From assembly GCF_004217495.1 (NCBI RefSeq), contig NZ_SHLC01000001.1:3038001-3102000 (forward strand): a DNA stretch of 64,000 nucleotides, written 5' to 3'. Positions 5,720 through 19,616 of the stretch are shown piece after piece. Under the pieces are notes generated by a model. It searched no databases and was not told the origin of the DNA. It saw nothing but the letters and a program-made list of their open reading frames with translations. Position 1 is the first letter of the stretch. Each line of letters opens with the position of its first letter. The translations under genes were made by a program, and so were the position numbers. This DNA is from Microterricola gilva. Its GTDB lineage: Bacteria; Actinomycetota; Actinomycetes; Actinomycetales; Microbacteriaceae.

Positions 5720-7186
5720 TTGGGTTTGGACAGCATGCGCGCGACGGGGGTTCTCAGGCGCAAGACCTGGCAGCGCGCGTACGCGATCCGTCTTTTTCTG
5801 AGCGACATCTCTGTCGTACTTGTGGCCGTCTTTGGAGCTCAGATCTTCTGGTTTGGCTCAGAGCCCGTTGACCTTGCCGCGCAAAACGCTGGTGGCGTGC
5901 GGATCGGGTACACCACGATTTCAGTCCTTCTCGTCGCAGCATGGATGATTGCCCTCGACGTTTTCGCCACACGCGATCACAAGGTGATCGGGAGTGGCAC
6001 GCTCGAGTACAAGAGGGTCGCTGACGCGACGATCTGGCTGTTCGGCCTGTTCGCGATTCTGGCGTTTCTATTCCGAATCGAGCTCGCTCGTGGCTACTTT
6101 CTGACGGCGCTCCCCATCGGCCTCCTTCTCCTCTTCGTGGCTCGCTGGACGTGGCGGCAGTGGCTGCGTCGTCAGCAAAGCGGGGACCAGTATGTGTCGC
6201 GGGCCCTGCTGATGGGTGAGCGACTCAAATCGGCTCACGTCGCCAAGACAATTCAACGCACACCCGGAGCCGGCCTGCTTCTAGTCGGAGCGCTCACTCG
6301 TTCGGGAACAATGAGCAAAGGGCCAATCCAGGGCGTCGCGGTACTAGGTGACTACTCCGAGCTCATGATCGCCGTCGACGCGTCGAATGCCGACACGGTG
6401 ATCCTCACCGGCGCCGACGAGATCAGTCCCGACGATATGCGCCGCATCGGCTGGGACCTTGAGGCACGCAACATCGAGCTCATTGTGGCACCGGCATTGA
6501 CCGACATTGCAGGACCGCGCATCCATGCTCGCCCGGTCGCTGGCCTGCCGCTCATCCATGTGAGCTATCCGACTCTCGAAGGCGCGAAGCGAGTGTACAA
6601 GCGCACTTTCGACATCCTCGGCTCCGCCTTCTTGATTCTCCTCGGATCGCCCGTACTCATCGCCGTGGCCATTGCAGTCAAGCGATCGGGCCCTGGTGAC
6701 ATCCTCTACCGCCAACTTCGTGTTGGCCGACGCGGTAGAGAGTTCGGCATGCTCAAGTTCCGCTCCATGGTTCAAGATGCCGACGACCAGCTCGAGAGCC
6801 TGCTCGACGCTCAGGGCACCTCGGAAACCCCGCTCTTCAAGGTCACGAACGATCCGAGGATCACCCCAGTGGGAAAGTTCCTTCGGAAGTACTCGCTCGA
6901 CGAGGTTCCCCAGCTTTTCAACGTGTTGCTCGGCGAGATGAGTCTGGTTGGCCCGCGCCCGCAGCGAGCAGCAGAGGTGGCCCTTTACGATGACGCCGCA
7001 CATCGGCGATTGATCATGAAGCCAGGCATGAGCGGGCTCTGGCAAGTGAGCGGTCGGTCAAACCTCAGCTGGGAAGACAGTATTCGTCTCGACCTCTACT
7101 ACGTAGAGAATTGGTCTCTAACGGTAGACATCATGATTCTGTTCCGCACCGTTCGAGCGGTCGTTACCCCCGAAGGTGCGCGCTAA
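5720..7186 (+). CDS. Polyprenyl glycosylphosphotransferase (initiating sugar transferase)
   Basis: A 488-residue membrane enzyme that starts repeat-unit synthesis by moving a sugar-1-phosphate onto undecaprenyl phosphate. Four to five N-terminal membrane helices and a CoA-binding-like central domain precede the catalytic C-terminal third: KRTFDILGSAFLILLGSPVL (membrane anchor), QLRVGRRGREFGMLKFRSM, DPRITPVGKFLRKYSLDEVP, LGEMSLVGPRP and MKPGMSGLWQVSGRS are hallmarks of the bacterial sugar transferase family (WcaJ/CpsE). TTG starts at 5720 or 5726 are possible; GGGGAG at 5711-5716 is better spaced for 5726, and an ATG at 5735 is too distant. It is the first gene of the polysaccharide locus. Confidence 0.92.
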   Translation: MGLDSMRATGVLRRKTWQRAYAIRLFLSDISVVLVAVFGAQIFWFGSEPVDLAAQNAGGVRIGYTTISVLLVAAWMIALDVFATRDHKVIGSGTLEYKRVADATIWLFGLFAILAFLFRIELARGYFLTALPIGLLLLFVARWTWRQWLRRQQSGDQYVSRALLMGERLKSAHVAKTIQRTPGAGLLLVGALTRSGTMSKGPIQGVAVLGDYSELMIAVDASNADTVILTGADEISPDDMRRIGWDLEARNIELIVAPALTDIAGPRIHARPVAGLPLIHVSYPTLEGAKRVYKRTFDILGSAFLILLGSPVLIAVAIAVKRSGPGDILYRQLRVGRRGREFGMLKFRSMVQDADDQLESLLDAQGTSETPLFKVTNDPRITPVGKFLRKYSLDEVPQLFNVLLGEMSLVGPRPQRAAEVALYDDAAHRRLIMKPGMSGLWQVSGRSNLSWEDSIRLDLYYVENWSLTVDIMILFRTVRAVVTPEGAR

Positions 7187-7330
7187 CTGCCCACGGCGGC
7201 TCTCAACTCCAACACCTCAGAGACTCGGGTGCTTGCCTCCCTGGAGCGAGAATCGTGAACCGCTCCGTCCGCCGACCCTAAGACACTCCACAAGTTCGTG
7301 CGTCCAATTCGATGAACAATTTGGGGTGGC

Positions 7331-8092
7331 TCACGGCTCCCAACGCTCATCAACCACATCAACCGTTTTCTGAGTCGAGCCCGCATTGATTTCGGAAAGT
7401 TCCGGATGCATTCTGACGACGCGCAAAAGGTCGAGCCAGTTCATTGTGGTTGGCGGCACGAAACCGGCAAGCGCACGGGCCAACGCAAGATCTTCAGGGG
7501 TATCAACCGTCCATCTGAGGCTTGACAGGTCTTCGTCTAGATCGATGATCTCGATGGAGAAGCTGTCGGGGTTTTCATAGATGAATGGCATCACGTGCTC
7601 TCGGTGGTGTCCTTCACGCGCCTCTGCCCACGTGCGCTCCAACGCCGCACGCGTGACTACCTCGACATCGAGACCCACTGGGTACGTGCGCGGATATGGC
7701 GGCGGCAGCCTGCTCGCGGCGAAGTCGACATTGTGTTCCTGTTGCGCGCGAATGACAGCGTCGATCACTGCGGGGTCCATGAAGGGGCAGTCTGCCGTGA
7801 TGCGCACGATTAGGCTCGCTTCGGGATGTTGTTGGAGCGCCTGATAGTAACGGTCCAAGACGTCAAACTCACTGCCTCGATGCACCTTGACGCCGAGCTC
7901 AGCGCCTAGTGCCTCAACGAGATCGTCGGCCGGCGAGACAGTTGTCGCAATCGCCACCTCGCTCACGAGGCGTGATGCCTGCGCTCTCCGAACAACACGG
8001 CTCAACATCGGTTCCCCTCCGATGTCGGCGAAGACCTTGCCTGGGAGGCGGCTCGACCCGGCTCGGGCCTGAATCAAACAGAGCACGCTCAT
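7331..8092 (-). CDS. SpsF-like cytidylyltransferase
   Basis: A 253-residue nucleotidyltransferase. The N-terminus LIQARAGSSRLPGKVFADIG is the nucleotide-binding signature of SpsF/acylneuraminate cytidylyltransferases, and ITADCPFMDP carries the metal-binding Asp. Family knowledge: these enzymes activate a nonulosonic or related sugar with CTP. Last gene of a five-gene operon, joined to the glycosyltransferase upstream by an ATGA overlap. With the NeuB-like synthase two genes upstream it should complete formation of a CMP-activated acidic sugar. SpsF proteins are less certain in substrate than NeuA, so the sugar is not predicted by sequence alone. Confidence 0.85.
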   Translation of the reverse strand: MSVLCLIQARAGSSRLPGKVFADIGGEPMLSRVVRRAQASRLVSEVAIATTVSPADDLVEALGAELGVKVHRGSEFDVLDRYYQALQQHPEASLIVRITADCPFMDPAVIDAVIRAQQEHNVDFAASRLPPPYPRTYPVGLDVEVVTRAALERTWAEAREGHHREHVMPFIYENPDSFSIEIIDLDEDLSSLRWTVDTPEDLALARALAGFVPPTTMNWLDLLRVVRMHPELSEINAGSTQKTVDVVDERWEP

Positions 8093-9165
8093 TGCGTTCC
8101 CTTCTCGGGATGCCGATCCTGGTGACGACTGATCGCCAAGTCAGCAAGGTCGCGGAGCCTTTGAGGGGCCTTGGCCCAATCAGCTCGCTCACGCACCAGC
8201 GTCAGCGCATTGCGTGTGCGTTCAGCAGACGCTTCATCCGGTGATGTTCGTCGATGGCACTCCCGCATGAAAGTACTGAGCCGATCGACATCGCCCACCG
8301 GGAAACTGGATCCGGAATGTTCAGTCACCCACTGTGCGTTTCCAGGGATCGCCGTTACACAGACAGGAGTCCCGCACGCCATCGCCTCAAGAAGTGAAAC
8401 GGATGTTCCATCGACGGGGGAAGGACTGATGTACAGATCAGCCGTTCGATACAACGCAGGCAATCGAGCCCAATCCACGGATCCGATGAATTGAACGCGC
8501 TCGGCCAAGCCCGCGTCCACAATCATCTGCTCAAGCGTTGCAGAAAGCGAACCACCAGACGCAATAAGCAGTCGAAGCTCCCGATCGCTGGACGCCGCGA
8601 GGATGAAGGCGCGAATCAGAGTATGAAGGTCGTATAGAGGCTCGTGTTGCCGGGCGCACAGTACCACGCGCTCATCATTCACCCAGCCGAGCTCCTGCCG
8701 AAGGTCTAAGCCCTCAGGGGTCATACGCGCGAGGTCGATGCCCCAAGGAAACTGCACGATCGAGCCTGCTGGAGCCCCTAGCGCAAGCGCCTTTGCCTGC
8801 GGCCCATCGTTGTCGACTAGTATCGCGTCAGCCCGCTCGATGGACCGCCGCGCTTGCGCTAGAGCTAGCACATCGATGTCGACATCCTTCATGAGGTCGA
8901 AGCCCCACGAGGTCACTATCAGCGGACCATCCCAGTGTTTCACCACTTCGGCAGCTACGTCAGTGAGGGGCCCAGCTTGCACAATGTTGGGCGAGAACTC
9001 CCCAAGCGCAGCTGCTACTCGCTCCCCAAAATCACGAAGCTGCGGCGACGACGATGACCCGTCGCTGACTGCAACCATGAGCACGTCAAACCCTGCAGCC
9101 ATCCACGCGTCCAGAAAACGCACATCGTGCGTTGTTCGACCGCGCGAGGCGTAGAGGATTCGCAC
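8089..9165 (-). CDS. Glycosyltransferase family 4 (GT-B fold)
   Basis: A 358-residue retaining-type glycosyltransferase, GTG start overlapping the NeuB-like stop by one base. The N-terminal half opens with MRILYASRGRTTHDVRFLDAW. The C-terminal half contains the nucleotide-sugar region ISPSPVDGTSVSLLEAMACGTPVCVT, a clear GT4 signature (the E of LLEAMACG contacts the donor). It probably adds one sugar of the repeat unit on the cytoplasmic face of the membrane. Its place between the NeuB-like and SpsF-like genes suggests it belongs to the same sugar, but GT4 enzymes usually use NDP rather than CMP donors. Confidence 0.85.
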   Translation of the reverse strand: MRILYASRGRTTHDVRFLDAWMAAGFDVLMVAVSDGSSSSPQLRDFGERVAAALGEFSPNIVQAGPLTDVAAEVVKHWDGPLIVTSWGFDLMKDVDIDVLALAQARRSIERADAILVDNDGPQAKALALGAPAGSIVQFPWGIDLARMTPEGLDLRQELGWVNDERVVLCARQHEPLYDLHTLIRAFILAASSDRELRLLIASGGSLSATLEQMIVDAGLAERVQFIGSVDWARLPALYRTADLYISPSPVDGTSVSLLEAMACGTPVCVTAIPGNAQWVTEHSGSSFPVGDVDRLSTFMRECHRRTSPDEASAERTRNALTLVRERADWAKAPQRLRDLADLAISRHQDRHPEKGTQ

Positions 9166-10238
9166 TAGGGCTGCCGTTCGAGGTCGCTCCAGCTCACGGC
9201 ATCGTCGGCCGACACGTCACGGCGGACTACCAGGCCCACGAGCGACTCAACCTTGCTCGCCGGGATAGCGTCAGCAGGACATGGCCGGAGCACGACGAGA
9301 TCGTTGCGGCTGAGGACCGTTCCAGCAGCGACATCCCTGCGGAAACGAACCGCACGACGTTGCACGACGACGGTGTCAACTTCGTTGGCCTCCACGTGCT
9401 TGTACGACGTTCCGAGTGACGCCTCCAGCTCACGCGAACGATCAACCATGTCTCGCCACGTGATCGGGTCCATTGAGAAGAGGTGGTCTGGTCCGGGTCG
9501 GGTTGTGTCGTCGGTGAAGTGCTTCTCAACCACGCGAGCACCAAGAGCAATGGCGCCAAGCGTTGAGGCATGTCCTGGCGTGTGATCAGACAGACCCAGC
9601 ACCACATCGGGATACAACTGGGCGAATGACTTCAACACGTTCAGATCAAGGAAGTTGAAGTTGTCGTGTGATGCCGTGTAGTTCGTGTTGCACTGCATCA
9701 AGACAATATCGTTGGTGTGCTTGCGCACTGCTTGCATCGCGGCATCGACATCGCCAATGCTTGACGCTCCGGTCGCCAACAGCATTGGCTTGCCCTTTGA
9801 AGCGGTGTAGCTGATCGCCTCGAGCCAAGTAATGTCCCCGCTTCCGATCTTGTACGCCGGAACGTACGGCTCAAGCATGTCAATTGCTTCGAAATCGTAA
9901 GCAGCGGAAAAGTAGTGGATGCCTGCGTCGTCACACGCCTGCTTCAGCACCGGCGTCCACGCGTGGGGAATAGACGCCTCGGCGTAGACCTCTGTTACTG
10001 GCTTTGTCCAGGACGCCTGGTGGCTCAGCTTTCCGCCAAGCTCCGCGAAACCCTTGTCGGAGACGATCTCTTTCGCTGCGAAGTTCTGAAACTTCGCAGC
10101 CTCCGCACCTGCCTCTGCAGCGAGGTGGATGAGAGCGACGGCCCGATCCAGATCCCCGTCGTGGCTGGCGGCGATATCGGCGACGAAATATGTCGGGTAC
10201 TCAAGCCCGATCTTTCTGCCGGCAATCTGAAGGTCCAT
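9165..10238 (-). CDS. NeuB-like nonulosonic acid synthase
   Basis: A 357-residue TIM-barrel synthase with a C-terminal antifreeze-like (SAF) domain. Motifs: VADIAASHDGDLDRA near the N-terminus, AAKFQ, MQCNTNYTA, LSDHTPGHASTLGAIALGA and RVVEKHFTDD...GPDHLFSMDP, all placed as in N-acetylneuraminate/pseudaminate/legionaminate synthases, which condense phosphoenolpyruvate with a six-carbon sugar. SAF domain from about 290 (RRAVRFRRDVAAGTVLSRND). Operon partners are a PseB-like dehydratase and an RmlD-like reductase rather than the usual aminotransferase. The exact acceptor sugar is therefore open; see findings. Confidence 0.9.
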   Translation of the reverse strand: MDLQIAGRKIGLEYPTYFVADIAASHDGDLDRAVALIHLAAEAGAEAAKFQNFAAKEIVSDKGFAELGGKLSHQASWTKPVTEVYAEASIPHAWTPVLKQACDDAGIHYFSAAYDFEAIDMLEPYVPAYKIGSGDITWLEAISYTASKGKPMLLATGASSIGDVDAAMQAVRKHTNDIVLMQCNTNYTASHDNFNFLDLNVLKSFAQLYPDVVLGLSDHTPGHASTLGAIALGARVVEKHFTDDTTRPGPDHLFSMDPITWRDMVDRSRELEASLGTSYKHVEANEVDTVVVQRRAVRFRRDVAAGTVLSRNDLVVLRPCPADAIPASKVESLVGLVVRRDVSADDAVSWSDLERQP

Positions 10239-10250
10239 TTGTTCCTCGCT

Positions 10251-11162
10251 CTAGTTCGCGTACTGTTTGATGATCTCCGGCACACCGGAATCGAACGCCG
10301 CTCGGAGCCGCGCAATACCGTCAAGCTGCCCTACCGGTCGGGAACCGGTCGTACTCCAGAACTTGTCGACCGAGAGGCTCATCTGCGACCCGCGGCGGTC
10401 TGCGAGATGATCCGCCGAGGTGGCTTCCCTCACCAGAAGGGGATCGAAGCCGAAGGCCTTAGCGATGTTGCGGCCGAAATCGTACTTTGAAATTGGCTCG
10501 CTGCTCACGACGTTGAAAATTCCACTCGCGCGATGAGCGACGAGAAGCGCGATGCTCTCAACGAGATCCCCAACATACATCGTGCTTACAACAGTGTCCG
10601 TGAAACCGTTCACTGTGTGACCGGCCGCAAGCTCGCGATGAAAGAACTCCGCAAGGCTTCGTCGTCCGGTAGGACTCCACCCGTAGAAGTTGACGCGGGC
10701 GATGATTGCATCTGGATTGGCCTCGAGCACCGCATTCTCGGCCCGTACTTTGCTTCGCCCGTACTCAGTTGATGGAGAGGCGGGATCGGTTTCGGAATAG
10801 TTTCCGATGGATCCGTCGAAGACCGCGTCGGTTGAAATGAAAACGAATTTGCTTCCAACGGCGTAAGCCTGGCGCGCTAAATCGGCTGAAGCGTCAACGT
10901 TGACCAACTGTGCGAGCGCCGGGTTGGATTCGCAGGCCTCGATCGACGAGATGGCGGCGGAATGGAAAATGACGTCGGCAGCCGCACGATCCACCAATCC
11001 ACTTCGACTGTTGGCAGAAGCGAGATCGGCGGCGAGGAAGGTCGCTGGGGCGGACCTGGGCGCGCTCCGAGCTGTCAGAACGATCTCTGACTCTTCGCCA
11101 AGCCGCAATGCGACGTTCGAACCAAGCAGGCCAGTGGCCCCGGTCACCAACCACCGTGGCAT
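10251..11162 (-). CDS. RmlD-like NAD(P)-dependent sugar-nucleotide reductase
   Basis: A 303-residue extended short-chain dehydrogenase. The Rossmann motif TGATGLLGSNVA is at the N-terminus, and the catalytic Tyr/Lys pair is in TEYGRSKVRAE. Overall layout (FISTDAVFDGS, NFYGWSPTGRRSLAEFF) matches dTDP-4-dehydrorhamnose reductases and the related 4-keto-sugar reductases of aminosugar pathways. It lies 4 bp downstream of the 4,6-dehydratase gene, so the simplest reading is that it reduces that enzyme's 4-keto-6-deoxy product to a 6-deoxy-N-acetylhexosamine (inference). No dTDP-rhamnose genes (rmlA, B or C) are in the window, which argues against rhamnose synthesis here. Confidence 0.8.
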   Translation of the reverse strand: MPRWLVTGATGLLGSNVALRLGEESEIVLTARSAPRSAPATFLAADLASANSRSGLVDRAAADVIFHSAAISSIEACESNPALAQLVNVDASADLARQAYAVGSKFVFISTDAVFDGSIGNYSETDPASPSTEYGRSKVRAENAVLEANPDAIIARVNFYGWSPTGRRSLAEFFHRELAAGHTVNGFTDTVVSTMYVGDLVESIALLVAHRASGIFNVVSSEPISKYDFGRNIAKAFGFDPLLVREATSADHLADRRGSQMSLSVDKFWSTTGSRPVGQLDGIARLRAAFDSGVPEIIKQYAN

Positions 11163-11166
11163 GTGC

Positions 11167-12147
11167 TTAGTCGTTCGCTCGGATCATCTCGCGCAGCTCA
11201 TCGACTGACAGCCACAGATCGTTGGTGTTGGAGTAGTAGGCGAATCCATCTTCAACAGGCGTGCCTGCTGGCGCCTCGTATCCCCAGCCACCGATGTGCG
11301 GCATGACGACATAGCGGGATCCCAAGTTGAGCGTGCGGCGGGAGTCGTCCGGAGCAATCATTTCCTCGTGAAGCTTCTCGCCTGGACGGATCCCGATCTC
11401 GTGCGTGCGTGCTCCAGGGGCGATAGCTTCAGCCAGATCGGTAATACGCATTGAGGGAATTCGAGGGACGTACAGCTCACCGCCGGACATACTCTCAAAC
11501 GACTCGAGCACGAAGCCGACGGCCTGCGAGATCGTGATCCAGAAGCGAGTCATGCGGTTGTCAGTGATCGGTAGCGACTCGCCGCGCTCGGCGAGCGCAC
11601 GCCATGCAGGGACGATGCTTCCACGGGATCCCATGACATTGCCGTACCGCACGACAGCAAAGCGCGTTTCGTAGCCGGCAGCATAGTGATTACTGCTGAT
11701 GAAGAGCCGGTCTCCGACGAGCTTCGTGGCACCGTACAAGTTGATAGGGCTGGATGCCTTGTCGGTTGACAGCGCGACGACCTTCTTGACTCCACTGTCG
11801 ATCGATGCATCGATCACGTTCTGCGAGCCGGCAATGTTCGTGGCGACAAATTCCGAAGGGTTATACTCGGCCGTGTCAACTTGCTTCAACGCCGCAGCGT
11901 GAATGACGTAATCTACGCCGTGAAAAGCACGACGCAAGCGCGCCGCATCTCGGATATCGCCAATAAAGAAGCGAAGACGCGGGTCATCGTTGAACATCCG
12001 GCGAACTTCAAGCTGCTTCAATTCGTCACGGCTGAAAATGGCCAAGCGGCGGACATCATGGTTGGCGAGAAGCTCACCAATGAGTGCTTTTCCCAATGAA
12101 CCAGTTCCGCCGGTGATGAGAACGGAACTTCCACTAAGAATTGACAT
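11167..12147 (-). CDS. UDP-GlcNAc 4,6-dehydratase (PseB/FlaA1-like)
   Basis: A 326-residue soluble dehydratase. Rossmann motif GGTGSLG at residues 13-19, catalytic Asp-Lys in LSTDKASSPINLYGATK with the conserved Tyr, then VRYGNVMGSRGSIVP and TRFWITISQAV. These match PseB, which removes water from UDP-GlcNAc and inverts C5, and the related CapE/FnlA enzymes. Length equals the short soluble form. First gene of the minus-strand operon; GAGGG just upstream is the ribosome site. Product is UDP-4-keto-6-deoxy-HexNAc. It could feed pseudaminic acid, FucNAc/QuiNAc or a new sugar depending on downstream enzymes. Confidence 0.9.
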   Translation of the reverse strand: MSILSGSSVLITGGTGSLGKALIGELLANHDVRRLAIFSRDELKQLEVRRMFNDDPRLRFFIGDIRDAARLRRAFHGVDYVIHAAALKQVDTAEYNPSEFVATNIAGSQNVIDASIDSGVKKVVALSTDKASSPINLYGATKLVGDRLFISSNHYAAGYETRFAVVRYGNVMGSRGSIVPAWRALAERGESLPITDNRMTRFWITISQAVGFVLESFESMSGGELYVPRIPSMRITDLAEAIAPGARTHEIGIRPGEKLHEEMIAPDDSRRTLNLGSRYVVMPHIGGWGYEAPAGTPVEDGFAYYSNTNDLWLSVDELREMIRAND

Positions 12148-12613
12148 TGACCCTCATAAGACTCTTGTTCGAGTGACTCCCGACCTGAACGTGAGAGTTT
12201 CATGAGACATGCACTTGTGCCGCCCCCGAAGAGCCACTATACATGCGAGGTTTCGATGGCGATTTCGCTGAACCGCGATTCTCATTTGACGCGGAGCTGC
12301 TCGATCGGGGCGCATCAACGATGCCTCTGTGCCGTGGTCCGGGCCGGGAAGCGCAAGCAAGGGCGGCAGGACTGGAGTTTTCCGAAATGCCCTTTAGACT
12401 TACCGAGCTAAGGGAACGGCTGAGGTCGACCCCGATTAGATGGATGACGAAGACAACCCGGCAGTGGCTCGGTTGCTGTTTTCAGCTTGGGCGCCGCTGA
12501 ATCGTCTCCGCATTGCATCGTCCGCACGACAACATCGTGTCGCGCGCCCTGTTCGAGGTCTAGCGACCGTGGCTGAGTTGGAACAGCAGTGAAGCAACCA
12601 TGATCGACACCGG
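12148..12613. other. Divergent promoter region inside the polysaccharide locus
   Basis: About 466 bp of comparatively low GC with no convincing gene on either strand. Short open frames here have erratic composition and no ribosome sites. It must hold the promoters for the leftward sugar-supply operon and the rightward flippase-polymerase genes. A small inverted repeat (ACTC, six bases, GAGT) near 12161-12174 lies just upstream of the dehydratase start. Nothing else is supported. Confidence 0.5.
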
Positions 12614-14083
12614 TTGCACTGGGGGTTGGAAGAGATCTTAAGAATCAAAGCAGTTCCGAAACGTGCCGGTGGCCAATTGGTGACCACGGGCAGCCTCTAC
12701 ACGCTGGGGCTTGTTGCGCCGATCATTTCGATGCTCCTCACCACTCCCCTAGTCACGAGAGCCCTCGGACCGGAAGGCTATGGAACCGTCGGCGTAGCAA
12801 TCACGCTGAACCAAGTCGGCGCCATCCTCCTTGGATTCGGCCTTCCGTACGCCATCACCCGGCATGCAATCATACGGAAATCCGGCGTCAGAGGGGCGTC
12901 CTTCCTCGTAGCCTTCGGAACACTTCTCGCACTGCTCACGGGTGCTGCTCTCGCCGTTCTTGTCCCTCTTTGGGGGCCGTTGGTCCTTACGAACGGCGAC
13001 AGCGATGTGCTGATCTGGCCCGTCATCTCCGCGGTCGGCCTAGCCATGCTTTCACTCACCCAGGCGTTCTTGCGCGCTGTCGACAGAGTGTGGCTCTTCG
13101 TTGGTCTCGGGACATTGTCGTCTCTGCTTGCGCCGGCTCTCGGGTTCGGGATGCTGCTGGCATTGGGCCCATTGCCTTCCAACTACCTGAGCGGGTTGGG
13201 TATGGGACATCTCATTGCTGGCATCGTCAGCATCCTCGCGACTGTGATGATCGCTGTGCCCAAGATCTCAATGCGCGAGCTCTGGCAGAGCATACGAATC
13301 GGCGCACCGACCATCGTGCACACCATCGCCACAACCTTTCTGATCAGCGCCCTCGTGGTTCTGGCTTCACAGATGGCAGGCGCAGAGGTGGCAGGAAGAC
13401 TTCAGCTCGGACTGCTTCTCGGCACTGCGCCGATAATCCTTCTTGGTGCGTTCAATAACTCTTGGGCACCAATCGTTTATCGCTCAAGCGATGCCACTCG
13501 TTCGAACGTGCTGCAGGACACGCTCCGAATAGTGTCTCTGCTTGTTTTCGTCCTGGTCGGCGGTTACTGCACGCTGGCGCCCGTCGTCGTGCCGTTCATC
13601 GCCGGCCCCAGTCTCTTCACACCCGAAATGCTGGGTGCGTCCCTAGTGGCCACAATCGCGGCGCCCTTCATGGCCCTCTACCTTGCGAATATGCATCTGG
13701 TGTTCCTTGCGGGCAATACGGCTTGGTTGACGCTCACGACGCCTCTCTCTTTGGTGTTCAGCGTCGGAGTGGTGGTCGCTGGCATCCAGCTCGGAGACAC
13801 TACCAATCTCGTCATTTTCGCGTGTGGAGTTCCAGCCTTCTACTTCGCGCAATGGTTGATCAGCATTCTGTTGCGTCGACGGACTGGATTCGAGTCGCCG
13901 CGGATTCGTTCCGCGCTGCCCGCGTTGTGCGCAGCAATGGCGCTTCCAGCAGTTGTTATTCTGCTTCGGATCGACGCTGTCGTTACGGGAGTCCTCTTCG
14001 TGACGCTCGCCGCTGCTTTCGCGTTCTCTACGAAAGTGAATGGCTTGTTTTGGAATCGGGCAAAGGGTATGGGACGACGATGA
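12614..14083 (+). CDS. Wzx-type polysaccharide flippase
   Basis: A roughly 489-residue polytopic membrane protein with about 12-14 hydrophobic segments. Near its N-terminus, LLTTPLVTRALGPEGYGTVGVAI is the typical signature of Wzx/MurJ-related repeat-unit translocases. It should flip lipid-linked repeat units to the outer face for polymerisation. The start is uncertain: TTG at 12614 is used here, but TTG 12626, TTG 12677 or GTG 12680 are possible; none has a strong ribosome site. Stop overlaps the next gene's start (ATGA), indicating translational coupling with the polymerase. Confidence 0.85.
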   Translation: MHWGLEEILRIKAVPKRAGGQLVTTGSLYTLGLVAPIISMLLTTPLVTRALGPEGYGTVGVAITLNQVGAILLGFGLPYAITRHAIIRKSGVRGASFLVAFGTLLALLTGAALAVLVPLWGPLVLTNGDSDVLIWPVISAVGLAMLSLTQAFLRAVDRVWLFVGLGTLSSLLAPALGFGMLLALGPLPSNYLSGLGMGHLIAGIVSILATVMIAVPKISMRELWQSIRIGAPTIVHTIATTFLISALVVLASQMAGAEVAGRLQLGLLLGTAPIILLGAFNNSWAPIVYRSSDATRSNVLQDTLRIVSLLVFVLVGGYCTLAPVVVPFIAGPSLFTPEMLGASLVATIAAPFMALYLANMHLVFLAGNTAWLTLTTPLSLVFSVGVVVAGIQLGDTTNLVIFACGVPAFYFAQWLISILLRRRTGFESPRIRSALPALCAAMALPAVVILLRIDAVVTGVLFVTLAAAFAFSTKVNGLFWNRAKGMGRR

Positions 14084-15585
14084 CGAGCCAAATGAGCTTT
14101 TCGAACGCTGTGGCATTCGCGAGGAAGATTGACTACGTTCCGTGGGTCTACGGTGCCGCTCTCCTTCTCACGCTGATCCCCGCGTCGATTGCAGTGCTGT
14201 TCTCAGACGCAGGCTGGACGCCGTTGGTCAAGGTTCTGGCTGTTGCCATCGCCGTCGGAGCCGCTGCAGCGCTTTTCCAGTCAGCAGCCCGAAAGACATT
14301 CAGTTTTGCGATGTCGCTCTTCTGGATGTGGGTGTATGTGTTCCTCGGGCTCACCCAGCTATATCAACTCGCGAGCAACAAATTCCCGTGGGGAGCAGCT
14401 TTCGATGATTCGACCGTCTTAACCGCACAAGCGGTCATTCTGCTCGGGAGCGGATCCCTGTATCTCGCTTCAGAAATGACGATGCGGCGCAAACGCGCGG
14501 TGCTCAGCGCCACGGCCGCGCATGGTGAACCGCCCGTGCGACCTGCCAAGTTGCGGATCACAGTCCTGACATTTTGCTACGCGTACTCCGCAGTCACGAT
14601 CTGGTTCATCATCTCGAACGGCTCCGCGCTTTTCCAGGGCAAGGCTGCCTTCCAGGACCAGCTTGAGGCGAACGCGAGCATACCGGGCTCCGGCACCGTG
14701 TTCTTGGTCGCCATCGCCGGTGCAATGTGCATCCCGGCGATCGCGATCATCGCGAGGCGATATGACGTTGGCATACCGCTCCCGGTCGTGTTGCTCGTTT
14801 GTGCCCTGGGATTTGTCGCAACGAATCCGCTGACCGGTTCACGATTCCTCACCGGTACGTTCCTTCTCGCCCTAATCGGCGCACTACTTCTCCGCAGACA
14901 CCTTCTGAGATTCGTCCCGCTGGGGATAATGCTCACTTTCGTGACGCTGTTCCCTTCCCTGGACATTCTGCGAAATGACGGAACCGGCGCCGAGGAACTC
15001 GCGCTCTCGATGCCAAGCCAGACTCTGCTGACCTTTGATTTTGACTCGTTCGAAATGCTGCTCAGAGCCGTGACTGTATTCGGCCACGTGCCCAATGGCT
15101 TTCCGACCCCGTTTGAGCTCTTCCTGGCGCCAGTTCTGAGGTGGGTTCCGGTGTTATCTGCAACAACTCAGGGTCACGACGGCGGCCCGGTTGTGGCCGA
15201 AATCACCGGAATGACCTGGACGAATGTATCCATGCCGCTGTGGGGAGAAGCCTACTTGGTCGGCGGATTTGTCGCAGTTGCGTTGGCGTTCGCGGCGTTT
15301 GGCATAGTTTTGGGGCTAGTTCGACCGTCTCCAGGTGTGCTCCAGCCCATGCGCACGCCCGCTGCACTGATGATCGAGGTCCCGGTCGGTGCGCTTCTGA
15401 TCATGTTGCTTCGGGGTTCGCTTGCATCTGTTTTGGGCTACTTGCTCTTCACACTTGCGCTGGGGATCGTGATATGGCTGGTTTGGCGGCGGGACGAGGC
15501 AGGGCCCCGAATCAGGACGCGCAACTCGGCGGCAGGCGTCAGCGCACACAATCGTCCTCAGCAAACGAGTAGGAGCGGCTGCTAA
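14080..15585 (+). CDS. Wzy-like repeat-unit polymerase
   Basis: A 501-residue integral membrane protein with about 11-13 hydrophobic segments and a large external loop around residues 330-400, as in O-antigen/oligosaccharide repeat-unit polymerases. The start ATG overlaps the flippase stop as ATGA. A fragment reading TNPLTGSRFLTGTFLLALIGALL resembles the conserved Arg-containing loop of that family. Sequence conservation in Wzy proteins is poor, so the call rests mainly on topology and on position directly after the flippase. It should join flipped repeat units into chains on the outer membrane face. Confidence 0.75.
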   Translation: MTSQMSFSNAVAFARKIDYVPWVYGAALLLTLIPASIAVLFSDAGWTPLVKVLAVAIAVGAAAALFQSAARKTFSFAMSLFWMWVYVFLGLTQLYQLASNKFPWGAAFDDSTVLTAQAVILLGSGSLYLASEMTMRRKRAVLSATAAHGEPPVRPAKLRITVLTFCYAYSAVTIWFIISNGSALFQGKAAFQDQLEANASIPGSGTVFLVAIAGAMCIPAIAIIARRYDVGIPLPVVLLVCALGFVATNPLTGSRFLTGTFLLALIGALLLRRHLLRFVPLGIMLTFVTLFPSLDILRNDGTGAEELALSMPSQTLLTFDFDSFEMLLRAVTVFGHVPNGFPTPFELFLAPVLRWVPVLSATTQGHDGGPVVAEITGMTWTNVSMPLWGEAYLVGGFVAVALAFAAFGIVLGLVRPSPGVLQPMRTPAALMIEVPVGALLIMLLRGSLASVLGYLLFTLALGIVIWLVWRRDEAGPRIRTRNSAAGVSAHNRPQQTSRSGC

Positions 15586-16907
15586 TGTCCCAACCTGCTT
15601 CCGCAGACGCGGCCCGTACAATCCCCCAGGCTCTGCCCACCTCAGAGGCAAGAGAAGCATTAGCGGCCGAGATCATTGGATCTCTCGCCGTCGGGGACCA
15701 TGGTTTTCACTCAAAGGCTGTGCTGCGTGCGCCCTTCGGGCTTGCGACTTTGTTCCTCAACGCCACCAGGAACTTGTTCGGAAACGACAAGGAGGCGCTT
15801 CCGCCCGGTGAAGTACTCCTTCTGATCGCAAACCCCCTCGCCCATGGAGCTCGACTCGCGAGCGCCACGCAACGCAGCATCCACAGCAGATCCGTGGTCA
15901 CGGTCGCAGACGCACGATTTGCCGATCCCAGCCTGAAGATTGACTACTCGTTCCCCGGAATCTCCTCTCGCTCGCTCAAAGCGGCTACGACTTTTGGCCG
16001 ACTGTTCGAGGGGTTGCGCCTTCGACGCTCTGTACCGCGTACACACCAGCTGATCGGCTCTCAGAACCACTTCTACCGGGAGTACCTGTTCCTGGCCCAG
16101 GCGCTGCGCTTCATCGAGGCACGCGAGATCGTCAGTCGGCTGGCCCCGGAGACGGTTCTAGTCACGGACTACGATCGCCATACGTACAACTGGCCGTGGA
16201 TCTCGGCCGCAAACGAGCGTGGTCTCTCAACTGCGTCACTAGTGCACGGCTCACCGAATGACTCCAACTACGTGCCTGTTCTCGCGCGAAACGTGCTGGT
16301 CTGGGGGCAAGCACAACTCAGTTGGTTCGCAGAGCGGAGCCCCGACGCTCGAGCGATTGTCGTCGGGCGACCGGATCTGTCGAACTGGACTGCTGACGCG
16401 CCACAGCGGCTTCGGCGCGTCGTGGTTTGCCACTCGCGGGAAATTCTGAGCCTCACTGAGGTTGAGCGCATCACCGCATCAGTCGCTGCGTTCCAGCGGC
16501 GCGGGCTTGAAGTGCATCTGAGGCTGCACCCGAGCATGGTGGAGGAAGGGCTCGATTCGAACTGGGCGAGAATCTCGAGGATGGCCTCATCAGTCTCCGG
16601 TGGGCGCGAATCTTTCGCGGAGAGCATCTCCGCAAGCGACGTCGTTGTGTGCGTTACGTCAACTTCGGCGATCGATGCGATCACAAAAGGTGTACTGACC
16701 CTTGTGCTCTGTGATGACGACCGTGTCCTGCCCTGCGACCTTGGCGAGGTTCGCAGGAACGCGCCGAGCGTTCTTGACGCTATCGAGAAGCGGCTAGCCG
16801 GCAGCCTGGCTGGAACCTCGGTTCCTCGGGAGCTGGTGGATCATCTCATTGCATCCCGCGGACCAGACGCCGAAGCACTCTTGGATTCGGCGGTTGCGTC
16901 ACTCTAG
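15585..16907 (+). CDS. Putative GT-B glycosyltransferase, possibly CMP-nonulosonate-dependent
   Basis: A 440-residue soluble protein whose start overlaps the polymerase stop by one base (TAATG). I do not recognise a named family with certainty. Seen: LVTDYDRHTYNWPWISAANE followed by a VHGSP turn, HLRLHPSM (an HP motif) around residue 310, and VCVTSTSAID around 350 (a Ser/Thr-rich motif). Bacterial sialyltransferases of the GT-B type (for example GT38/GT52) have HP and Ser/Thr motifs in this order, binding CMP of the donor, and a CMP-sugar is made by this locus. Teichoic-acid-type polymerases (CDP-glycerol families) share part of this fold, so that is an alternative. The stop shares CTAG with the convergent gene. 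Confidence 0.55.
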   Translation: MSQPASADAARTIPQALPTSEAREALAAEIIGSLAVGDHGFHSKAVLRAPFGLATLFLNATRNLFGNDKEALPPGEVLLLIANPLAHGARLASATQRSIHSRSVVTVADARFADPSLKIDYSFPGISSRSLKAATTFGRLFEGLRLRRSVPRTHQLIGSQNHFYREYLFLAQALRFIEAREIVSRLAPETVLVTDYDRHTYNWPWISAANERGLSTASLVHGSPNDSNYVPVLARNVLVWGQAQLSWFAERSPDARAIVVGRPDLSNWTADAPQRLRRVVVCHSREILSLTEVERITASVAAFQRRGLEVHLRLHPSMVEEGLDSNWARISRMASSVSGGRESFAESISASDVVVCVTSTSAIDAITKGVLTLVLCDDDRVLPCDLGEVRRNAPSVLDAIEKRLAGSLAGTSVPRELVDHLIASRGPDAEALLDSAVASL

Positions 16908-17800
16908 CCAGCCAGCCTCTCGCGGCTGTCCAGCGAGGATGCGGGCATCCGCTCTCCCTCACGCCAGCCTTTCGCGATCTCGAGAAAGGAAGACCACCGA
17001 CCGCGCTTTGTGAGCAGCGCGCGGGCAATTGAACGGGTGATCTCGAAACTGACGGCTATCCGTCCACGGTTCTTTGAGTACAGTTTTCGGTGGAAGAGAA
17101 ACAAGTTCCGCCCCAGGAGCCGTGAAGGGATTCCGCTGGACTTCTGGCTGACGCGCGCGCGCGGAACCCAGATGACTCTATGCCCGGCCCGTCGGAGTCT
17201 CGTGTGTAGGTCAGTCTCCTCGAAGTAGAGGAAGTACGTCTCGTCGAGCTTGAAATTCTCGAGGTCGGCGGTGCGATACATCGTAAATGCACCGTCGAGC
17301 CATTCTCGATCGACATTCGATTCGTTCGCCAAGGCGTCAAGATTGACCCAATGCCGTGGCAATTTCAATGTTGGTGTGAGCCTCCCACCAACTGACCAAA
17401 TCTGCCTGCCGGTGTCAGCATTCAGCAAAGTGGGGCCCGCGACCGCGATCCGCGGGTCGCCGAGAATCTCTTCTCTCATCGCTCGAACCGCCCCTGGCGC
17501 CGCAAGCGACTCATGAGTTGAAACGAGCGTGAGGGCTCGATCCTGCTCAGTCGACTTCAGGTGCGCGACCCCATCGTTGACGGCCGCGGCATAGCCGCGA
17601 TTTCTCGTGTACAAAACCGCATAGCCGTCACAGCCGGGGATCTGGCGGTCAGTCGCGTCATTCCCGTTGTCGACAATGAGGATGCGATCCTGAGCCACTC
17701 CGTTGGCTGTGAGCGCCCCAAGGGTGTGCACCAGCGTTTCAGGGCTCTTGTGATGCACGACGATGCACGCAACGTCATCGACCACTTCGGAGACACTCAA
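16904..17800 (-). CDS. Glycosyltransferase family 2
   Basis: A 298-residue GT-A enzyme. The start is a TTG overlapping the upstream stop as TTGA, with AAGG about 7 bases upstream; a longer frame upstream is just the reverse reading of the preceding gene. DDVACIVVHHKSPETL opens the nucleotide-binding domain, ILIVDNGND and YTRNRGYAAAVNDG are typical of the rhamnosyltransferase-like GT2 group, and FLYFEETDLHTRLRRAG carries the catalytic-base region. The usual DxD position reads STHES, so metal coordination may differ. Third gene of a three-gene GT2 operon in the surface polysaccharide locus. Confidence 0.85.
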   Translation of the reverse strand: MSVSEVVDDVACIVVHHKSPETLVHTLGALTANGVAQDRILIVDNGNDATDRQIPGCDGYAVLYTRNRGYAAAVNDGVAHLKSTEQDRALTLVSTHESLAAPGAVRAMREEILGDPRIAVAGPTLLNADTGRQIWSVGGRLTPTLKLPRHWVNLDALANESNVDREWLDGAFTMYRTADLENFKLDETYFLYFEETDLHTRLRRAGHRVIWVPRARVSQKSSGIPSRLLGRNLFLFHRKLYSKNRGRIAVSFEITRSIARALLTKRGRWSSFLEIAKGWREGERMPASSLDSRERLAG

Positions 17801-18771
17801 CGGTTCGCCTTGGCGTGAGCGGCGCGCCAACGGAGCCCAACCGGATAACCGGCCATCTTCGCGAGGTCGCCGGCGACAACAATCAGTGGTACGAGCGCAA
17901 GGCCCCAGATCAGCCCCGGTCCGAAGCGCGCACGTCGATTCCACACGCGACACCAGAACTTTCGCATGTAGAAGACGAATCCGAGCGCAAGCGCCACCGC
18001 GGCCCACGGGGTGAAGAAGGACCCGACTAGCAAGAGCAACCCCGCGATGTATGCGAGATAGCGCGCAAGGTGCCGCTTCCACCACAGGCTCGCTTTGCCA
18101 TCCCCGCGTGCATATCGAAAGTACTGCTTCATAAACGAGCGAACGCTCGATCGTGCCGACCACGTAACTATGGCCTCGGGGACGAAAGCAAAGACAAAGC
18201 CGCGGTTCTTCATACTGATATCGAAGATCAGGTCCTCGCAGTAGTCGAGCCACTCCGGGTATCCCTCGACACTTTCCCACGCCTCCCGCACGAATGCGAG
18301 TGAGCGGCTAGACGGGAGAAACGAAGTTGGTTCGATTTCGTGAAGTTCCGGTGTCACGGCAAAAGCAATGGTGCGTTCGGTGAGCGATTGGCCGACCGGT
18401 TCAAAGAACCCGCCCACGACCTGAGGCGCCTCGGGAGAATCAAAGGCAGCGAGCATGCGTTCAACCCAACGCGGGTCAAGTGTGGTCCCGCCGTCGGTCA
18501 CCAGGATACGTTCGGCCGACGTCTGCGCCACAGCAATGTTGCGCCCTTCAGAGATACTCGCCCCGGGTCGCACCAGCAAAGTGAGCATGCAGTTTGCTGG
18601 GGCTGGCCAGGCACGGAGCAAATCTACCGTGCCGTCGGTGGAGCCACCGTCGACGACGACGATTTCAGAAGGGAGAACGCTCTGCGCCGACAAGCTCTCC
18701 AGAAACACGGGAAGACCCCGCGCCTCATTCAGTACGGTCAGCACGAGGGCCCCTGCCCGAATAACTGGCAT
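17797..18771 (-). CDS. Membrane-anchored glycosyltransferase family 2
   Basis: A 324-residue GT2 enzyme starting MPVIRAGALVLTVLNEARG; GGAG lies about 9 bases upstream and the previous gene stops 2 bp before. IVVVDGGSTDGTVDLL and LVTDGGTTLDPRWVERML are the donor-binding and DxD-like (TDGG) motifs. Around 240 the protein reads FMKQYFRYARGDGKASLWW (QxxRW-like processivity region without the exact motif), followed by two C-terminal membrane segments (YLAYIAGLLLLVGSFF and LIWGLALVPLIVVAG). It likely acts at the inner membrane face on the growing lipid-linked unit. Confidence 0.85.
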   Translation of the reverse strand: MPVIRAGALVLTVLNEARGLPVFLESLSAQSVLPSEIVVVDGGSTDGTVDLLRAWPAPANCMLTLLVRPGASISEGRNIAVAQTSAERILVTDGGTTLDPRWVERMLAAFDSPEAPQVVGGFFEPVGQSLTERTIAFAVTPELHEIEPTSFLPSSRSLAFVREAWESVEGYPEWLDYCEDLIFDISMKNRGFVFAFVPEAIVTWSARSSVRSFMKQYFRYARGDGKASLWWKRHLARYLAYIAGLLLLVGSFFTPWAAVALALGFVFYMRKFWCRVWNRRARFGPGLIWGLALVPLIVVAGDLAKMAGYPVGLRWRAAHAKANR

Positions 18772-18773
18772 TC

Positions 18774-19616
18774 CTAAGCTCCGTAGACTTCGCGGCTGAT
18801 CCTCGCGTGCTTGCGAGACGCGATGTTCCTGCCCAATAGGAATTCTGGGTAGCGTCCGTAGAACTTGAACATAGACGCCAACTCTCGCTTCCATGGCGTC
18901 GCGCTCAAGTTGGAGGTCTCACGAGCCCAGCCGTGCGTCCACCTCACGCGCGGGACAACGGCCACGGGGACTCCAGCCTTCCACGCCCGCAAGCAGAAAT
19001 CCTTGTCCTCGTAGTAGAGGAAGAAATGCGAATCCCAGGCACCGAACATCTCAATGCTCTGACGGGCCGCAAAGATGGAAGCGCCCATCAGCCAGCACAC
19101 CATTCTTGGCTCATCGGATTCGCTGAACAACAAGTAGCTACCATGAAGCTTCTCTCCGGAGCCGAGCCTGTTCCTGACCTTGTCCAGCAGGAAAGGGAAC
19201 CCTCGCCCGTTTGGTTGCACGGAGCCATCGGCATTCATCAGCTGCGGCGATACGACCGCTTGATTCTCAGTCGCGACGAGCTCGAGTGCTTTCAAGTCCG
19301 CATACTTCACACGAATGTCTGGATTGACGAAGCCAACAAACTGGCCGCGAGCGATCTCAAAACCCTTGTTGTTCGCCAGACCAAAACCAAGGTTCTCGGT
19401 GAGTCGGATGACCCGCGTGGCGCCTAGCCGTTCGGCGAGCTCGGCACTTCCATCCGTAGAGCAATTGTCAACGACGATCCACTCGACGTCGGAGGGAACC
19501 GCATCGTTCTTGCCCCAAAACTCTTCAAGAGCCTTTCGGCTATTGTGCGTCACCGTGATGAGCGAGCACCACGGACTTTCAGACCTGCCGGCAACGCTTG
19601 GGATTGAACTCACCAC
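18774..19616 (-). CDS. Glycosyltransferase family 2 (rhamnosyltransferase-like)
   Basis: A 280-residue GT2 enzyme with a GTG start, first gene of the three-GT operon. SLITVTHNSRKAL, WIVVDNCSTDGSAELAE, LTENLGFGLANNKGFE and FVGFVNPDIRVK are the standard motifs of dTDP-Rha-type GT2 transferases, with the NPD triplet as metal site. WLMGASIFAARQ and FFLYYEDKDFCLRAW supply the catalytic region (EDKDFC). Acceptor and donor are not predictable. No rhamnose synthesis genes are in the window, so if it uses dTDP-rhamnose the supply is elsewhere. Confidence 0.88.
   Translation of the reverse strand: MVSSIPSVAGRSESPWCSLITVTHNSRKALEEFWGKNDAVPSDVEWIVVDNCSTDGSAELAERLGATRVIRLTENLGFGLANNKGFEIARGQFVGFVNPDIRVKYADLKALELVATENQAVVSPQLMNADGSVQPNGRGFPFLLDKVRNRLGSGEKLHGSYLLFSESDEPRMVCWLMGASIFAARQSIEMFGAWDSHFFLYYEDKDFCLRAWKAGVPVAVVPRVRWTHGWARETSNLSATPWKRELASMFKFYGRYPEFLLGRNIASRKHARISREVYGA

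Follow-up and report, generated by a model that had tools for sequence, protein, structure and literature searches.

The 64,000-nucleotide stretch of the Microterricola gilva genome analysed here (the window) carries on its minus strand a five-gene operon for a putative nonulosonic (sialic acid-like) sugar. The genome is a complete actinobacterial chromosome of 3,666,811 bases, the whole of which was searched. From the first gene to the last, the operon consists of the following.

11167-12147, minus strand: PseB, a UDP-N-acetylglucosamine (UDP-GlcNAc) 4,6-dehydratase predicted to invert C5, the operon's first gene (TIGR03589)
10251-11162, minus strand: RmlD-like short-chain dehydrogenase/reductase (SDR), a predicted NAD(P)H-dependent 4-ketoreductase acting on the PseB product (PF04321)
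9165-10238, minus strand: NeuB, a predicted NeuB-clade nonulosonate synthase that would condense its substrate with phosphoenolpyruvate (PEP) (PF03102 plus PF08666 SAF)
8089-9165, minus strand: GT4 glycosyltransferase of the GT-B fold (PF00534)
7331-8092, minus strand: SpsF-type cytidylyltransferase, predicted to activate the nonulosonate with CMP (PF02348)

Gaps of 4 nucleotides (PseB to SDR) and 12 nucleotides (SDR to NeuB), followed by overlaps of 1 nucleotide (NeuB with GT4) and 4 nucleotides (GT4 with SpsF), led us to read the five genes, from 12147 down to 7331, as one operon. A preliminary description of this DNA had placed PseB-like, RmlD-like, NeuB-like and SpsF-like genes in one operon, which both profiles and spacing bear out, though it had overlooked the GT4 gene that lies within the same interval. 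Our reading, to which we give a probability of roughly 0.6, is that the operon's product is a 9-deoxy nonulosonic acid, activated with CMP, with a hydroxyl rather than an amine at C7, reduction having replaced transamination. This is supported by the failure to find a DegT-type aminotransferase, PseG or NeuC genome-wide together with an SDR-NeuB pair that is kept across phyla. Moreover, fusaminic acid and 2-acetamido-2,6-dideoxy-L-altrose (L-6dAltNAc) share one repeat unit in Fusobacterium nucleatum 25586, which provides a precedent for the product (PMC13014188).

For the aminotransferase (PseC, LegC/SpsC), a whole-genome scan with PF01041 (DegT/PseC) returned nine partial matches, the best at 36.4 bits and eight above the loose cut-off of 19.8. 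On rescanning, these were two Cys/Met, two class V and three class I/II enzymes, one serine hydroxymethyltransferase, and one protein (L003) without a Pfam match at E 1e-12, and hence no DegT-type aminotransferase was confirmed in the whole genome. PseG gave no match in the whole genome at E 0.001. NeuC was likewise not found there, the sole PF02350 protein being of the non-hydrolysing WecB type (TIGR00236, 264.5 bits, cut-off 210.15) and scoring 62.3 of 235.9 on TIGR03568. This partner search covered DegT aminotransferases, PseG and NeuC. As far as homology can tell, then, this genome has no recognisable PseC or LegC, nor either of the enzymes, PseG and NeuC, by which an amino sugar is known to be set free. 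The preliminary description had remarked that an aminotransferase and a UDP-sugar hydrolase are absent from the window and had proposed looking for PseC and PseG elsewhere; with that check run, the absence extends to the genome as a whole. A canonical pseudaminic, legionaminic or N-acetylneuraminic acid (Neu5Ac) pathway was rejected, its partner enzymes not having been found in the whole genome.

The first two enzymes fit a dehydratase-reductase pair. PseB scores 472 bits on TIGR03589, over the curated cut-off of 407.75, and its closest solved relative is 2gn4, a 'UDP-GlcNAc C6 dehydratase'. Its residues Ser127, Thr128, Asp129, Lys130, Tyr138 and Lys142 are kept in all 66 aligned sequences; the [ST]DK-Y-K motif is listed for inverting dehydratases and likewise for the 5,6-dehydratase Pen (PMC8987622). 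The SDR falls in the RmlD family (PF04321, 147 bits), with TIGR01214 at 141.5 bits lying under its cut-off of 224.05, and retains the Ser/Thr-Tyr-Lys triad, Ser110, Thr111, Asp112, Tyr134 and Lys138 being present in all 73 rows (of 75) that have letters there. Its predicted model (mean predicted local distance difference test score, pLDDT, 96.4) has its nearest solved folds among the dTDP-4-dehydrorhamnose reductases, enzymes that reduce 4-keto sugars, namely 3sc6 (Z 35.2, root-mean-square deviation (rmsd) 1.8, 275 aligned) and 1vl0 (Z 35.2, rmsd 1.9, 277 aligned). The GT4 model (mean pLDDT 93.6) gave BshA 6n1x (Z 37.5, rmsd 2.8, 337 aligned) and MshA 3c4q (Z 35.1, rmsd 2.3, 335 aligned) as top folds and is thus nearest to transferases that use UDP-N-acetylhexosamine (UDP-HexNAc), such as BshA and MshA. 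Both models support fold classes, not substrates. The closest solved relative of the SpsF-like protein is 6oew, a 'Cytidylyltransferase'.

NeuB has the hallmarks of its superfamily, namely the barrel and SAF domain, the active-site lysine, the metal histidines and the SAF arginine (Lys49, His219, His240 and Arg318 in 81 of 81 sequences). Also invariant are Gln51 and Glu238, while Asp21 occurs in 80 of the 81. It nevertheless lies under the curated cut-offs of both the NeuB model (249.4 of 399.65 bits) and the PseI model (218.8 of 340.25 bits), and its closest PDB match by sequence is SpsE. When its alignment was read against the 13 active-site residues listed for the meningococcal synthase (PMC6795526), a list that does not single out the one reading C4, seven were kept (Gln55, Lys129, Tyr186, Ser213, His215, Glu234 and Arg314). 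Asp21 stands in place of Glu25, and a CNTNY motif (81 of 81) and a QRR motif (all 26 rows compared) accompany it; all three features are absent from the solved synthases in the alignment with the window's NeuB. Around the second metal histidine, the sequence is RPGPDHLFSM in the window's NeuB and RPGPDIVCSM in the N-acetylmannosamine (ManNAc) enzyme, with PseI and SpsE unlike both; this likeness may hint at a substrate with a 4-hydroxyl group.

To see how the operon is kept among relatives, we took the 80 best of at least 543 NeuB matches in a genome scan (54-72% identical). By tree label these loci span 12 phyla (Chloroflexota, Actinomycetota, Pseudomonadota, Bacteroidota, Ignavibacteriota, Gemmatimonadota, Verrucomicrobiota, Acidobacteriota, Bdellovibrionota, Fibrobacterota, Planctomycetota and Chlorobiota; one row has no phylum), most records being metagenome bins in which single phylum labels may be wrong. 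The SDR is directly upstream of NeuB in 74 of the 80. Among the other six, two have fewer than 200 bases upstream (L055, L080), two have extra DNA between SDR and NeuB (L045, L120), one has the SDR downstream of NeuB (L114), and in one no SDR was found (L053). PseB is near NeuB in 68 loci and a cytidylyltransferase in 67 (SpsF type 52, PseF type 22, some both). The loci were censused by tblastn, and since a cytidylyltransferase was counted as 'near' up to 4 kb before NeuB or 9 kb after it, some are part of an adjacent cluster. Aminotransferases were counted on NeuB's strand only. On this basis the complete core (SDR, PseB and cytidylyltransferase with NeuB) is present in 55 of the 80 loci, of which 41 have no same-strand aminotransferase on either side, 6 have one downstream only and 8 have one upstream.

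Two forms of the cassette can be told apart by the gene that follows NeuB. One, as in the window, has GT4 there (44/80), and 43 of these 44 lack any aminotransferase. In the other, mostly in Proteobacteria, a small GT2 takes that place (26/80), and its loci often have either an aldo/keto reductase together with a class III or DegT aminotransferase upstream, or PseF and no core aminotransferase. Three loci (L079:7091-9115, L081:6911-9007 and L094:7079-9115) encode a fusion of an SpsF-type cytidylyltransferase with a class III (glutamate-1-semialdehyde-like) aminotransferase, immediately preceded by an aldo/keto reductase; the fusion was recognised by profile scan in the first and by similarity in the other two, and perhaps represents a further nitrogen-adding step on a nonulosonate. 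Elsewhere (L054:11062-11583), a PF13302 acetyltransferase-like protein takes the glycosyltransferase's place after NeuB, and frames of 174-180 residues in the same position in L050, L084 (whose record ends 778 bases past NeuB) and L098 fall with it in one cluster of four.

Of 298 other genomes in the window's own family, 6 have a NeuB of at least 53% identity, after which the best match falls to 38%, and in the phylum sample only 1 of 396 passed E 1e-100, namely the window itself. The cassette is rare in Actinomycetota and in this family, and most of the 80 closest loci come from Chloroflexota or Pseudomonadota; the operon is not peculiar to this family of bacteria. Five other Actinomycetota loci (L042, L043, L044, L046 and L121) nonetheless have PseB and NeuB at 58-79% identity, and tree labels put Schumannella and Microbacterium in Microbacteriaceae. 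Microbacterium algeriense and Leptolinea tardivitalis are among the operon's carriers. Dozens of same-family genomes also contain a distant NeuB-like stretch (residues about 3-297, 27-33% identity), a barrel without SAF that often sits in very long open frames and may represent a fusion or another family of synthases.

Related operons vary in the activating enzyme. In one (L096), a PseF at curated level (TIGR03584, 288.2 bits, cut-off 205.7) replaces SpsF, which suggests that the acid activated with CMP is pseudaminate-like, also in its stereochemistry. Three others (G293, G104 and G213; L123-L125) have the order PseB, PseF-like, SDR, NeuB and a GT4-like protein (25-26% identity). Moreover, two relatives have a separate, ordinary-looking nonulosonate cluster. 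In G111 this lies directly upstream of the intact operon (L122:1435-8264) and comprises a dehydratase, a DegT-like protein, NeuC, a synthase of the neuraminic/legionaminic type and a PseF-like protein; in Microbacterium MYb54 (L141) it is located elsewhere in the genome and consists of PseB, SpsF and a synthase together with a DegT-like and a PseG-like protein. The operon therefore looks like a pathway of its own, and cells with both clusters presumably make two different sugars.

The genes of the cassette also vary together. Protein distances correlate with those of NeuB at 0.80 for SDR (75 rows), 0.83 for PseB (66), 0.81 for SpsF (48) and 0.80 for GT4 (43), and with one another at 0.78 (SDR-PseB, 64 rows), 0.70 (SDR-GT4, 41) and 0.82 (PseB-GT4, 39), correlations that are partly due to the hosts' shared descent. 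For each of the seven pairs (r 0.70-0.83), none of 999 permutations was as high. Judged by their sequences, the five genes behave as one pathway. In a quick tree search, from which five duplicate or cut outgroup rows were dropped, a 100% branch separates the 81 NeuBs from 31 other NeuB-type proteins, a grouping that is partly by construction, the rows having been picked by similarity.

In the pathway that we propose, PseB would act first, probably with inversion at C5, and the SDR, using NAD(P)H, would then reduce the 4-keto group, most probably to UDP-2-acetamido-2,6-dideoxy-L-altrose, or else to its 4-epimer. After release of the sugar from UDP, presumably by an enzyme not recognisable as PseG or NeuC, NeuB would condense it with PEP to a 5-acetamido-3,5,9-trideoxy-nonulosonate, which may be pseudaminic acid's 7-hydroxy analogue or else, as in the fusaminic type, the C4 epimer of that analogue. 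As we read the nomenclature, L-gluco is the C4 epimer of the L-manno of pseudaminate-type acids, with C5-C8 as in 6-deoxy-L-altrose. SpsF, going by its family, would make the CMP-sugar, and the GT4 and the flanking Wzx/Wzy-type genes would build it, possibly with the 6-deoxy-L-HexNAc itself, into a surface polysaccharide. The GT4 is predicted to use UDP-6-deoxy-HexNAc or the CMP-nonulosonate; that it frees the sugar from UDP is speculative. It is the product, its stereochemistry and the hydrolase that we infer. The route from a 4-reductase through a 6-deoxy-HexNAc to a 9-deoxy acid without the C7 amine had already been suggested in the preliminary description, and its gene-level logic holds, given the genome-wide absences and the SDR-NeuB pair across phyla, while its chemistry stays predicted.

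Several points weigh against this reading. The chemistry of the pathway is predicted from its genes. The window's NeuB differs at 6 of the 13 meningococcal sites (Glu25, Asn74, Thr110, Phe112, Asn184 and Phe288), and its substrate is for that reason not fixed by homology. A PseB-like sequence is no proof of C5 inversion either, since Pdeg of Bacillus cereus is 46-47% identical to PseB and does not invert (PMC4514872). An aminotransferase is found upstream of NeuB in 12 of the 80 loci and downstream in 9 (both in L076), and hence relatives may add nitrogen. The locus counts, drawn from the best of a larger set, describe close relatives. Finally, the PseG and NeuC profile scans revealed no UDP-sugar hydrolase in the window's genome, and those for PseG none at curated level in the carriers.

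The hydrolase is a striking gap because NeuB needs a free sugar. It had been named as missing before, with nothing drawn from it, and it is also hard to find in other carriers. Curated-level PseG was found in none of 48 carrier genomes (0/16 and 0/32), many of them incomplete bins; this cut-off is strict, a PseG-like protein near a pseudaminate-type cluster scoring 92.8 of 153.55. Weaker but plausible PseG-like proteins are present in four of the 48 (G299, 92.8 bits; G330, 130.1; G331, 73.8; G346, 46.2 with a second piece of 29.3), those of G299 and G330 being located in a second nonulosonate cluster, and the remaining carriers gave no PseG match or partial matches of 19-29 bits. Similarly, a PseG-like sequence is near NeuB in one of the 80 loci (L076), where it belongs to a second nonulosonate cluster downstream (E 5.8e-4). 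NeuC is above its cut-off in 4 of 18 carrier genomes. We tentatively raise, though we think it doubtful, that the cassette itself provides for release of the 6-deoxy-HexNAc, through the reductase, the Asp21/QRR-type synthase or, where present, the GT4, with no dedicated hydrolase of the PseG or NeuC kind, and that this goes with a class of nonulosonic acids (7-hydroxy, 9-deoxy) spread over about 12 phyla. The GT4 is a possible hydrolase in the GT4 form only. As a universal hydrolase it was rejected, given that 36 of the 80 loci (some cut short) show no GT4 after NeuB, examples being L084 and L098 (acetyltransferase-like frame) and L051 (small GT2). A weak background hydrolase is also conceivable, since Bacillus subtilis without spsG is reported to retain legionaminic acid on its spores in strongly reduced amount, while its mother cells had no significant amount (PMC7439481).

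Of the alternatives, the two that survive best seem to us equally unlikely. According to the first, the operon serves two products, with PseB and SDR making UDP-6-deoxy-L-HexNAc for the GT4 only, and NeuB and SpsF making a CMP-nonulosonate from another free sugar, e.g., ManNAc. The likeness of the GT4 fold to the UDP-HexNAc users BshA and MshA, the better score of NeuB on the Neu5Ac-synthase model (249.4) than on PseI (218.8), and a repeat unit in F. nucleatum 25586 that contains both a 6-deoxy sugar and a nonulosonate (PMC13014188) would all suit such a division. However, no hydrolysing epimerase was found in the window's genome, NeuC passes its cut-off in few carriers, and the SDR and NeuB adjoin in 74 of the 80 loci, whereas what follows NeuB varies (GT4, small GT2 or neither). 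In the second, C5 is kept as with Pdeg, the SDR giving UDP-D-QuiNAc or UDP-D-FucNAc (the 6-deoxy-HexNAc sugars N-acetylquinovosamine and N-acetylfucosamine) and NeuB a D-configured 9-deoxy acid, legionaminate-like or neuraminate-like with a 7-hydroxyl. Here, 46-47% identity to PseB does not ensure inversion, Pdeg and Preq are a known dehydratase/4-reductase pair (PMC4514872), and SpsF belongs to the legionaminic pathway in B. subtilis (PMC7439481). Against this, the PseB equivalog score is well over its cut-off, and PseF is the partner in the related operon of L096.

Less probable still is an ordinary pseudaminate or legionaminate pathway whose missing steps are carried out by unrelated enzymes, e.g., a class I-III aminotransferase elsewhere in the genome. 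Other pyridoxal phosphate-dependent aminotransferases do exist in this genome, and some relatives' operons have the SpsF-class III fusion or a DegT enzyme. These aminotransferases are, however, almost confined to the form without GT4, the SDR occupies the place expected for PseC, and no DegT-type enzyme was confirmed in the genome. That the operon is a decayed or inactive remnant is barely credible. Its G+C content (0.589 versus 0.667 for the window) suggests acquired DNA, and no NeuB match at 1e-20 was found in the 4 other genus genomes of the sample, but all five frames are open, with short gaps or overlaps between them, their catalytic residues are kept, and PseB and NeuB remain closely similar in the five other Actinomycetota loci.

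Coming back to the C7-hydroxy product, the genes flanking the operon, given here as context, would suit its use in a polysaccharide.

5720-7186, plus strand: polyprenyl glycosylphosphotransferase, which would start the repeat unit (TIGR03025, 418.2 bits, cut-off 295.55)
12614-14083, plus strand: Wzx-like flippase (PF01943, 44.7 bits, cut-off 28.2)
13462-15585, plus strand: frame whose later part may encode a Wzy-like repeat-unit polymerase, the gene start being unsettled (TIGR04370)

The Wzy-like match covers residues 281-619 of its frame at 27.1 bits, under the cut-off of 40. The neighbouring polysaccharide genes have a G+C content of 0.594-0.603, close to that of the operon, and both window ends are at about 0.70. 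A low-G+C stretch (5720-19616, about 0.59-0.60) contains the polysaccharide genes, and from its G+C the locus looks like an acquired island. Phage records gave no match at 1e-40, and plasmid records a single one (Maritalea, 53%). A different setting is observed in Anaerolineae loci (e.g., L070, L072 and L104), which have a conserved upstream order of genes that by eye are like Wzm/Wzt-type ABC exporters, with a methyltransferase-like protein, and in which a protein upstream of the cassette is weakly like Capsule_synth (16.2 bits, under its cut-off); this exporter-type setting differs from the Wzx/Wzy setting of the window.

Genome-based prediction of sialic acid-like sugars relies on recognising neuraminic, legionaminic and pseudaminic gene sets. 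If our reading is true, a cassette with reduction in place of transamination would be mis-annotated as one for pseudaminic or neuraminic acid, even though its product differs at C7 from pseudaminic and legionaminic acids. Its recurrence in Anaerolineae, Proteobacteria, Bacteroidota and other groups suggests that the sugar may be common in the surface polymers of environmental bacteria. The cassette also offers a gene-level hypothesis for the origin of fusaminic-type sugars and exposes an unfilled step, the UDP-sugar hydrolase.

Among the matches listed in the open literature (titles and abstract starts, with subscription journals mostly outside), we found no description of a PseB-reductase-NeuB-cytidylyltransferase pathway, and nothing useful on nonulosonates in Chloroflexi or Microbacteriaceae; sialic acid genes are mentioned in Pontimonas (PMC6106888). 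The preliminary description, too, knew of no such pathway in this family of bacteria, although the class of sugar is itself known from F. nucleatum 25586 (PMC13014188). With the pseudaminic acid pathway (PseB-C-H-G-I-F), the operon shares PseB as the first enzyme, a NeuB-superfamily synthase and CMP activation (curated-level PseF in L096), but an RmlD-like reductase is present where no PseC or PseG was found, and the synthase is below the PseI cut-off. UDP-linked precursors, an SpsF-type last step and a NeuB nearest to SpsE are common ground with the legionaminic pathway of B. subtilis (SpsM-C-D-G-E-F), while no counterpart of its SpsC aminotransferase or SpsG was found in the window's genome (PMC7439481). 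As for the Neu5Ac pathway, NeuC was not found and NeuB is under the curated level.

The Pdeg-Preq pathway to UDP-D-QuiNAc in B. cereus likewise has a dehydratase followed by a 4-reductase on UDP-HexNAc, yet does not invert C5 and stops at the UDP-sugar, the accessible text describing no NeuB step (PMC4514872). Among the matches listed, the nearest described system is the pseudaminate-like cluster of Vibrio B9-25K2, in which PseB, an SpsF-type domain fused to an aldo/keto reductase, a dehydrogenase and NeuB are found as well, but together with PseC, PseG and PseH homologues (PMC7371886); in some of our 80 loci an aldo/keto reductase adjoins SpsF, as in the Vibrio fusion. In product class, as predicted here, the closest resemblance is to F. 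nucleatum ATCC 25586, whose repeat unit has a 3,5,9-trideoxy nonulosonate without the C7 amine, fusaminic acid, beside 2-acetamido-2,6-dideoxy-L-altrose (PMC13014188; PMC5595891). Fusaminic acid has an N-acetimidoyl group and an L-gluco configuration called tentative, and the likeness is one of sugar structure.

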